From NCBI RefSeq assembly GCF_000620865.1, contig NZ_KK211190.1, positions 757,971-821,970 on the forward strand: a DNA stretch of 64,000 nucleotides, read 5' to 3'. Position 1 is the stretch's first letter. Every line of letters begins with the position of its first letter. This document shows, one piece after another, positions 47,472 to 50,379 of the stretch. The notes beneath the pieces are model-generated. The model was not told the origin of the DNA. It worked only from the letters and a program-made list of their open reading frames with translations, and did no database searches. This DNA comes from Exiguobacterium sibiricum 7-3 (GTDB lineage: Bacteria; Bacillota; Bacilli; Exiguobacteriales; Exiguobacteriaceae). The translations under genes were made by a program, and so were the position numbers.

Positions 47472-48080
47472 ATGAATGTTTTTTATAATAAAGAAGGTGT
47501 CGGAGACGTCTTGATGGTCATCTTAGCAGATGCACCACGCGCTGAAATCACTGCCGAAAGAAAAGGCGATGTAGCAACGATTTTCCATGGCGAAGACGTC
47601 ATTGGCTATAACATCTTCGAAGCATCAAAGCAGTTTGAATTGAATGCTGTAGGACCGGTCGAATTGACACCGAAACTTGTTGAAACGGTTCAACGCGTAC
47701 TAGGAGAAAATGGAATCGATTTCGAAGCGCGTGAAATTGATTATTCACCTAAATTCGTAGTGGGATTTGTAGCATCTGCTGAAAAACATCCAGATGCGGA
47801 CAAGTTGTCGGTCTGTCAAGTAGAAGTGGATGGTCAGACACTGCAAATCGTCTGTGGGGCACCAAACGTTGCTGCCGGACAAAAAGTAGTAGTCGCTAAA
47901 CCTGGCGCCGTCATGCCGTCTGGGTTAATCATTCGTCCGTCCGCTTTACGTGGAGTGGCTTCTAGCGGAATGCTTTGTTCTGCACGGGAACTCGCATTGC
48001 CGGATGCACCGCAGGAAAAAGGAATTCTTGTCCTTGAAGATACTGCGAAAACGGGAGAAGCATTTTTAATCGGTCGATAA
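47472..48080 (+). CDS. ytpR: YtpR, tRNA-binding (EMAP/OB-fold) domain protein
   Basis: The 202-residue protein has a family-specific N-terminal domain (MNVFYNKEGVGDVLMV) and a C-terminal EMAP-type OB fold (about 95-200: FVVGFVASAEKHPDADKLSVCQV, then IVCGAPNVAAGQKVVVA). This fold resembles the tRNA-binding domain of PheT. The ATG at 47472 gives the family start; in-frame starts at 47451 and 47463 overlap the AAGGGAG RBS. It likely binds structured RNA. Confidence 0.88.
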   Translation: MNVFYNKEGVGDVLMVILADAPRAEITAERKGDVATIFHGEDVIGYNIFEASKQFELNAVGPVELTPKLVETVQRVLGENGIDFEAREIDYSPKFVVGFVASAEKHPDADKLSVCQVEVDGQTLQIVCGAPNVAAGQKVVVAKPGAVMPSGLIIRPSALRGVASSGMLCSARELALPDAPQEKGILVLEDTAKTGEAFLIGR

Positions 48081-48117
48081 TTCGGCCGATTTTTTAACAA
48101 GATGGAGGGGTGAGGGA

Positions 48118-49005
48118 ATGAGCAGTCGTTATGAACAGTCGTTAAAGGAACAGGCAGCACGAATTCGACGTGAATTAGCAGGCGAAAAAGAAACAAAACC
48201 CGTCGAACGTCCTAAAAAAGAAGAGCGTGAAGATCGTTTCGTGTTGACGGATGTTCCATCGCCTATTTACGGATTCCAACGACCTAGAAAGCAACGGTCG
48301 ATCCAAGAGGAAATCCATTCGGACGAATCTGAAGTCGGTGTTTCAAGTGTGCATGAAGAGGAAAAATCAGAAGAGTCGCTTGAACATGAGGCAGAGGAAT
48401 TGAACGAAGAGTCGCGGATCGAGACGATGGAACAGACGGATCTAACCGAAGCGGATGCTGGCTTAGTACCGACGACAGATTCAGATATCCTCGTTCCAGA
48501 ACCGACAATCGAAGAAAATGCTCCGTTAGACGATGTTTCGGAAGAACAAGTCAAAGCACAGGCGGCGATTGAAAATCATCTTCCTGCAGCAGACGATACT
48601 GTTAAAGTAACGGAAGATCCTGTTACAGAAGAAATCAGCGAAGAAGATACGATTGAAGAAGCAACAGCGGAGAGTCATGTGGAAGAAAAGCCTGAGATGA
48701 CTTTGGAAGATCAATCTGTTCATGAAGAAGATACGGAAATCGTCCAGTTATCAACAGGTGTTGTACACGTTGATTCTCAAACGGAAGAGCCGGTCACGCA
48801 GATAGAAGAATTGCACTCTGCTGAAAATGAGTTAGTCGATAAAATCAAAGAAGAAAATAGTGTGGCCGAAGAAGCGCTGACGAATCAGTCGGTTCAAATC
48901 AAAAAACCGGTTGGTCCGCCGGTAAACGTCGTGATGACGACGAAGGACTTGATGGCCATGTATCGTGCACGTCGGGAGCAAAATAATTTAAATGGTAAAA
49001 AATAA
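48118..49005 (+). CDS. Acidic SftA-like protein lacking the FtsK motor
   Basis: The 295-residue protein sits exactly where B. subtilis has sftA (ytpS), between ytpR and murC. Its N-terminal part carries DRFVLTDVPSPIYGFQRP near residue 40, and its C-terminus carries PVNVVMTTKDLMAMY. I recall similar motifs flanking the disordered linker of SftA. The middle is low-complexity and very rich in Glu, Thr and Ser. The ATPase motor (Walker A/B) and gamma domain are absent; murC starts 79 bases after the stop and no motor frame is present downstream. It could be a reduced SftA retaining only a division-site adaptor, or a separate disordered protein. Confidence 0.7.
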   Translation: MSSRYEQSLKEQAARIRRELAGEKETKPVERPKKEEREDRFVLTDVPSPIYGFQRPRKQRSIQEEIHSDESEVGVSSVHEEEKSEESLEHEAEELNEESRIETMEQTDLTEADAGLVPTTDSDILVPEPTIEENAPLDDVSEEQVKAQAAIENHLPAADDTVKVTEDPVTEEISEEDTIEEATAESHVEEKPEMTLEDQSVHEEDTEIVQLSTGVVHVDSQTEEPVTQIEELHSAENELVDKIKEENSVAEEALTNQSVQIKKPVGPPVNVVMTTKDLMAMYRARREQNNLNGKK

Positions 49006-49012
49006 GTCGGTT

Positions 49013-49021
49013 TGCTATAAT
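49013..49021 (+). promoter_or_regulatory. Extended -10 promoter for murC
   Basis: TGCTATAAT is a consensus extended -10, located 62 bases upstream of the murC ATG. The -35 is poor. It should allow murC expression independent of upstream genes. Confidence 0.6.
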
Positions 49022-49083
49022 GGTACAGGTTTTGTACCCAAGCCCGATGGTACGGACCGGAACGTGAATTGGAGGGCTCATAT

Positions 49084-50379
49084 ATGACAAACTATCATTT
49101 TGTAGGGATTAAAGGAACAGGGATGAGTGCACTCGCCCAAGTACTGCATGAAATGAATCATCAAGTACAAGGTTCTGATATTGACAAGCATATTTTTACA
49201 GAAGATGCCTTGCGGGCAAAAGGAATTCCGTTTTTCCCGTTTAGTGCGGAAAACATTAAAGAAGATCAAGTCATCATCCAAGGAAATGCTTTTGGGGATG
49301 ATCATCCAGAAATTGCTCGGGCAAAGGAACTGGATTTAACGATTTATCATTATTATGATTTCTTAGGGTATTTAGCAGATGAGTATCGGTCTGTCGCCAT
49401 TACCGGTTCGCATGGTAAAACATCGACGACTGGTTTACTGTCACACGTCTTAAGTGGCATTACACCGACGGCATTCTTGATTGGTGACGGAACCGGTGCT
49501 GGCGTTGAAGACGCAAAGGCGTTTGTCTTTGAAGCGTGTGAATACAAACGACATTTCTTATACTACAAACCGGATTATGCGATCATGACGAACATCGATT
49601 TTGATCATTCGGATTACTTCACGGGCATTGATGATGTCGTATCCGCATTCCAGGAGATGGCGATGCAGGTTAAACAAGCAATCGTGGCTTGTGGAGATGA
49701 CGAACATCTACAAAACCTTCAGGCGAATGTTCCGATTCTCTATTATGGTTTTGGCGAAAACAATGATTTCCGTGCAGAAAATGCAACGTCGACTCCAGAT
49801 GGAACATCGTTTGACGTGTATCTTCGGGATGACTTCTACGGGACGTTTCTGATTCCTGGCTTTGGTCGACACCATGTCTTAAATGCCTTGTCTGTCATCG
49901 CGATTTGCCAGTACGAAGGACTAAACAAAGACGAAGTCGCAGCACGTCTGTCTACATTCGGCGGAGTTAAACGTCGTTTTAGTGAATCAACTTTCGGTTC
50001 GCAAATTCTTGTTGATGATTATGCGCATCACCCGAAAGAAATCAGTGCGACGATTGAATCAGCACGCAAGAAATATCCGGATCGTGAAGTCGTAGCGATT
50101 TTCCAACCGCATACGTATACCCGCTTGAAGTCATTCATGGATGATTTTGCGACATCGTTACGCGAGGCGGACGCCACTTATCTTTGTGAAATCTTTGGAT
50201 CGGCACGTGAGCAAGAAGGTCAAGTCCGTGTAGAAGATTTACAAGAAAAAGTATCTGGATCTGATATTTTGACACGGGATAATGTATCAATTTTAAGTAA
50301 ACATGAAAATGCAGTGCTGCTCTTTATGGGAGCGGGAGACATTCAAACGTATCAACACCAGTACGAAAACACGAAATAA
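49084..50379 (+). CDS. murC: UDP-N-acetylmuramate--L-alanine ligase
   Basis: The 431-residue ATP-dependent ligase adds the first amino acid, L-Ala, to the peptidoglycan precursor in the cytosol. [14 protein letters not shown] at the N-terminus binds UDP-MurNAc. The P-loop [11 protein letters not shown] is near 108. [11 protein letters not shown] segment near 318 is typical of the C-terminal domain. The ATG at 49084 follows GGAGGG by 7 bases. Position after ytpR and the SftA-like gene is as in B. subtilis. Confidence 0.95.

Follow-up and report, generated by a model that had tools for sequence, protein, structure and literature searches.

The window analyzed here is a stretch of 64,000 nucleotides from Exiguobacterium sibiricum 7-3. 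It contains, between ytpR and murC, a gene that is identified by the following features.

47472..48080, + strand: ytpR, the upstream synteny anchor (NCBIfam NF045760 YtpR, 218.6 bits)
48104..48110, + strand: strong Shine-Dalgarno sequence GGAGGGG, kept in the loci of the genus
48118..49005, + strand: motorless SftA-derived gene of 295 aa, read as an open frame and without a Pfam or NCBIfam domain
49084..50379, + strand: murC, the downstream synteny anchor (NCBIfam TIGR01082 MurC, 413.2 bits)

The open reading frame starts with an ATG at 48118 on the + strand and closes with a stop codon that ends at 49005, and the encoded 295-residue protein has a net charge of -46. Pfam and NCBIfam scans of this protein returned no domains; since nothing in either collection matched, the FtsK motor is absent from it. 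A PDB search with the protein recovered no relative, and an Rfam search gave no match. The original prediction had described an acidic protein of 295 residues, located between ytpR and murC and missing the Walker A/B motor; all three points are borne out, by the frame and its charge, by the NCBIfam matches on both sides, and by the lack of a Pfam FtsK domain, respectively.

Two conserved elements border the gene.

48068..48095, + strand: intrinsic-terminator-like hairpin with a T-run over the ytpR stop codon, conserved in the genus
49013..49038, + strand: extended -10 TGCTATAAT (49013-49021), followed directly by the palindrome GGTACA-N5-TGTACC, upstream of murC; conserved in both genera, with a different palindrome sequence in each

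The upstream hairpin (-14.5 to -15.5 kcal/mol in the genus loci) holds the ytpR stop codon in its loop and ends 8 nt before the Shine-Dalgarno sequence of the SftA-like gene; it is not listed by a consensus terminator scan. It may limit read-through into the SftA-like gene and hints at low or conditional expression, and the sigma-70 scan found no promoter of the gene itself. At the same place, E. flavidum has a hairpin of different sequence, and reading by eye shows a short hairpin with T's after it in the sister genus. Downstream, the extended -10 is kept in 18 genomes of the window's genus and in the sister-genus loci. The promoter that had been claimed for murC is this conserved extended -10, an element that the sigma-70 scan does not list. 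The palindrome is a possible operator or 5'-end RNA hairpin, with no match in Rfam; in the sister genus, the -10 is kept and the palindrome differs (GACAAA-GG-TTTGTC). Because of the upstream hairpin and the murC extended -10, the SftA-like gene is set apart from both of its neighbors.

The protein is built from two conserved ends that are joined by a variable middle.

48124..48189, + strand: N-terminal helix, residues 3-24, AlphaFold2 pLDDT about 90, near-invariant in the family
48232..48285, + strand: SftA motif 1 DRFVLTDVPSPIYGFQRP, residues 39-56, 39.4 bits with an HMM of motor-bearing SftA and followed in a class-wide survey
48286..48903, + strand: acidic, fast-evolving linker, residues 57-262, predicted disordered, as read from dN/dS, indels, and pLDDT
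48448..48504, + strand: genus-specific conserved linker block EADAGLVPTTDSDILVPEP, residues 111-129, in all 19 genus loci
48919..48948, + strand: SftA motif 2 PVNVVMTTKD, residues 268-277, from a motif HMM and hhalign
48940..48993, + strand: C-terminal helix, residues 275-292, near-invariant, AlphaFold2 pLDDT about 90

In the single-chain AlphaFold2 model, the pLDDT of the linker is mostly 35-60, and the low confidence for most of the protein between the terminal helices is consistent with disorder. The N-terminal helix is charged, with a mean hydrophobicity of -0.4 to -0.7. A search for it in 32 SftA N-terminal regions gave at best 1.8 bits vs 7.3 for shuffles, and its homology to an SftA segment was dropped. 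At the other end, the protein stops 18 residues past motif 2.

Outside the family, a profile built on the first 58 residues matches long frames in other Bacilli, at loci in which ytpR is followed by a gene for an FtsK-type motor (about 700-1100 aa) and then by murC; in some of these loci, one additional gene separates the motor gene from murC. The ytpR-adjacent motor genes that carry motif 1 are SftA, and their linkers contain, in order and before the motor, FRFPLIPD, motif 1 (FxPTxVPSP[IV]YGF), and motif 2 (PFNVxMLKxDK). The original prediction had taken DVPSPIYGF, now placed at residues 45-53, and PVNVVMTTKD for SftA segments and had proposed a profile comparison with SftA. An HMM of motif 1, built from 17 motor-bearing SftA and zero Exiguobacterium sequences, scores the window protein at 39.4 bits, while the best of 2000 shuffles reaches 7.2; in the motorless protein, the motif takes the form RFVxTDVPSPIYGF. 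This match, as sequence evidence, is decisive for motif 1 being kept from SftA. Motif 2 lies C-terminal to motif 1, as in SftA, and scores 8-12 bits in the sister-genus proteins vs a shuffle maximum of 2.3-3.1. A C-terminal profile joins the window's genus to the sister genus (E 1.7e-6 to 4e-10), and hhalign supports motif 2 of the window's genus at 93%; in the window's genus alone, the motif score was reached by 53 of 20000 shuffles (about p = 0.003). Retention of motif 2 from SftA is therefore supported, in part transitively via the sister genus as far as the window's genus is concerned, and the SftA identity that the original prediction gave to both segments is upheld.

It could be argued that an unrelated gene was inserted at the sftA position and resembles SftA by chance, as no more than about 30 residues are shared and the N-terminal helix does not resemble SftA. 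However, motif 1 stands far above its shuffles, motif 2 follows it as in SftA, and the gene neighborhood is preserved, which makes such an insertion very improbable.

Among motor-bearing SftA-clade sequences, the motif 2 forms nearest to that of Exiguobacterium are PFNVVMTPSDK (L153) and PYNVMMTPSDR (L106). Short motif-1 matches in two genomes (G132 and G249; 335 and 345 aa) were rejected as chance matches with no related locus, and short C-terminal matches in the f16 genomes (202 aa) fall inside a RecR-like gene next to a dnaX-like one, as judged from sequence only. The idea that the sftA P375S suppressor (PMC11790237) strikes motif 2 is unsupported: in two SftA of B. subtilis-like length, motif 2 occupies residues 451-463 and residue 375 lies in the acidic linker, so the substitution was not tied to the motif.

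The distribution of the motorless form was followed in a class-wide survey, in which a broad motif-1 profile was compared with 400 Bacilli genomes and the counts were taken by eye from the listing. Each of the 38 Exiguobacteriaceae genomes, which represent two genera, has motif 1 in a frame of 236-407 aa. The 85 other Bacilli genomes with matches at E up to 1e-5 have it in frames of 713-1117 aa, bar one of 337 aa (G095), which was rejected as a motorless case outside the family, its frame being truncated by the contig end. Weaker matches in other Bacilli extend to frames of 1236 aa and more, and a Walker motif was read in 32 frames of the motor-bearing type. Compared across related species, the locus is thus motorless throughout Exiguobacteriaceae and motor-bearing in other Bacilli.

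The genome of the window has a single motif-1 match and a single PF01580 match, the latter in a SpoIIIE-type gene (L109, 721 aa). Exactly one strong SpoIIIE/FtsK-type motor is present in 38/38 family genomes, in frames of 716-763 aa, with the exception of a 444-aa frame in one fragmented genome; further strong motor matches in family genomes, of 1558-1742 aa, are EssC-like in size. Seven other Bacilli were checked, and both SpoIIIE and SftA motors are present in 7/7. In a tree of motor domains, two Exiguobacterium motors, one per genus, join the transmembrane-bearing SpoIIIE (100/100), apart from a second cluster, likewise at 100/100, that is made up of all seven SftA; transmembrane segments are present in the Exiguobacterium motors and lacking in SftA. 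Relocation of the SftA motor to another place in the genome was accordingly rejected, as the sole FtsK motor is SpoIIIE-type, and an intact SftA elsewhere, which the original prediction had named as evidence against itself, is absent. The SftA motor is missing here and elsewhere in the family genomes, and its loss is family-wide. Judged from this distribution, with an unrooted tree, the motorless form is probably derived and the motor-bearing form ancestral.

The earlier suggestion that the protein is paired with a motor encoded elsewhere could then refer to SpoIIIE only. In such a split system, a detached targeting subunit would recruit or regulate the remaining SpoIIIE/FtsK-type motor in trans, and the function of SftA would be spread over two polypeptides. 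One chromosomal FtsK-type motor is indeed left, and the loss of SftA leaves a gap that it could fill. However, SpoIIIE is anchored by a transmembrane region of its own, the two genes were seen in no fused or adjacent arrangement, and no result ties the two proteins, so we regard this arrangement as rather unlikely.

The gene was found in 19/19 genomes of the window's genus. Intact frames of 244-351 aa with near-invariant ends are present in 18 of them, in agreement with the claim of a clean frame without a frameshift; in the nineteenth, E. flavidum, the gene sequence contains a run of N. In the alignment of the genus loci, the first 58 and the last about 35 residues are near-invariant, and the middle differs by species. 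Nei-Gojobori comparisons with the window copy, in which synonymous sites are near saturation in the distant species, give a dN/dS of about 0.03-0.14 over the first 58 codons, 0-0.08 over the C-terminal 32 codons, and about 0.3-0.6 for the acidic middle. Strong purifying selection acts on both ends of the protein, and the acidic middle behaves as a spacer between them. A frameshift or an assembly error is ruled out, with the gene intact in 18 genomes of the window's genus and in the sister-genus genes read; the family-wide motorless frames, the conserved ends, and the absence of an SftA motor elsewhere thus point to lineage-wide motor loss. With every enzymatic part missing, the gene might be taken for a decaying, functionless sftA remnant. 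Its ends, however, are near-invariant over 19 species while synonymous sites are saturated, dN/dS is mostly below 0.1, and the gene is intact in both genera; this selection analysis already contradicts decay, leaving it exceedingly improbable.

The linkers of the relatives contain many indels and tandem in-frame duplications. Every one of the 19 genus loci keeps the block EADAGLVPxTDxxxLVPEP, in diverged form in E. flavidum; in four of them (L008, L009, L017, and L018) it is doubled, each time by an in-frame duplication of 63-71 residues that repeats EADAGLVPxTDxxLLVPEP. The sister-genus linkers carry a conserved block of their own, GxVSIxxxGFxSVFMxSTDL (L103 2344-3048; L104 1924-2907; L151 1830-3035), which is missing from the window's genus and may be a binding motif specific to that lineage.

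What Bacilli gain from two DNA translocases is a matter of debate, and deletion of sftA alters division although SpoIIIE is able to move DNA. A family that dropped the motor and left two linker motifs near-unchanged is a natural dissection experiment, in which the kept motifs mark those residues of SftA whose function does not need translocation. In line with a suggestion of the original prediction, we propose that the protein is most likely a division-site adaptor that acts without DNA translocation. The retained sftA product would work at the division ring as a flexible, soluble adaptor, in which motif 1 and motif 2 together with the C-terminal helix would each grip a division protein and the acidic linker would act as a spacer. 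Its role would be to modulate how the ring assembles or the septum forms, with no DNA being pumped, and the single SpoIIIE/FtsK-type motor would handle DNA translocation. As the membrane helix of SftA is missing, recruitment to the septum would depend on protein contacts alone.

The best guess for the partners is SepF, FtsA, or FtsZ, because SepF and FtsA support the recruitment of SftA to the Z-ring; the genome of the window contains genes for both. In B. subtilis, as reported in PMC11790237 (citing Saaki et al. 2022), binding of SftA to the Z-ring is supported by SepF and FtsA, deletion of sftA leads to longer cells, and overexpression of SftA in an ezrA mutant blocks division, possibly by interfering with SepF. 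We place at about even chances the broader proposal that the SftA linker is a separable division module, which in Exiguobacteriaceae became a stand-alone, motor-free ring regulator. If true, part of the role of SftA in other Bacilli would be independent of DNA pumping. Both motifs are widespread in the motor-bearing SftA of other Bacilli, and this small soluble protein offers a means to find their binding partners.

A different target of the kept motifs is conceivable, namely, a septal hydrolase or wall enzyme instead of the Z-ring. The model for such an envelope scaffold is the FtsK of Staphylococcus aureus, which, according to PMC12755775, has a non-DNA role in controlling the abundance and septal localization of Sle1; in addition, a Bacilli FtsK within the SftA clade carries PFNVVMTPSDK, and murC adjoins the gene. 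However, the murC adjacency is ancestral synteny and no link to a hydrolase was seen, and we consider the scaffold unlikely relative to the ring adaptor.

The closest known relative is SftA (YtpS) of Bacillus subtilis and its relatives, which occupies the same ytpR-sftA-murC position and shares with the motorless protein motif 1 (FxPTxVPSPIYGF), motif 2 (PFNVMMxxxDK), and the long acidic linker between them. In contrast to SftA, the motorless protein has no motor, no C-terminal gamma winged-helix domain (Pfam), no MSWxKK amphipathic N-terminal membrane helix, and no FRFPLIPD segment, and has a new N-terminal helix; its complete genes, where read, encode 234-401 aa vs 713-1227 aa for SftA. We therefore use the name SftA-derived, and not SftA translocase, because the motor that defines the latter was sought and not found. 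On balance, we lean slightly toward the view that the gene represents sftA in Exiguobacteriaceae, as an orthologue that lost the motor, the membrane-anchor helix, and FRFPLIPD and is now a soluble division-ring adaptor. In the full-text literature searched, in which subscription journals are thinly covered, neither a motorless SftA nor any SftA of Exiguobacterium is described. The membrane translocases SpoIIIE/FtsK belong to the same superfamily as the lost motor, but they have a transmembrane N-terminus and a motor, and the motorless protein has neither. The Staphylococcus-type FtsK of the SftA clade (L153) has, besides PFNVVMTPSDK, a variant of motif 1, but carries the motor. In its proposed mode, i.e., action on the ring without DNA transport, the SftA-derived protein would resemble the small Z-ring regulators SepF, ZapA, and EzrA.
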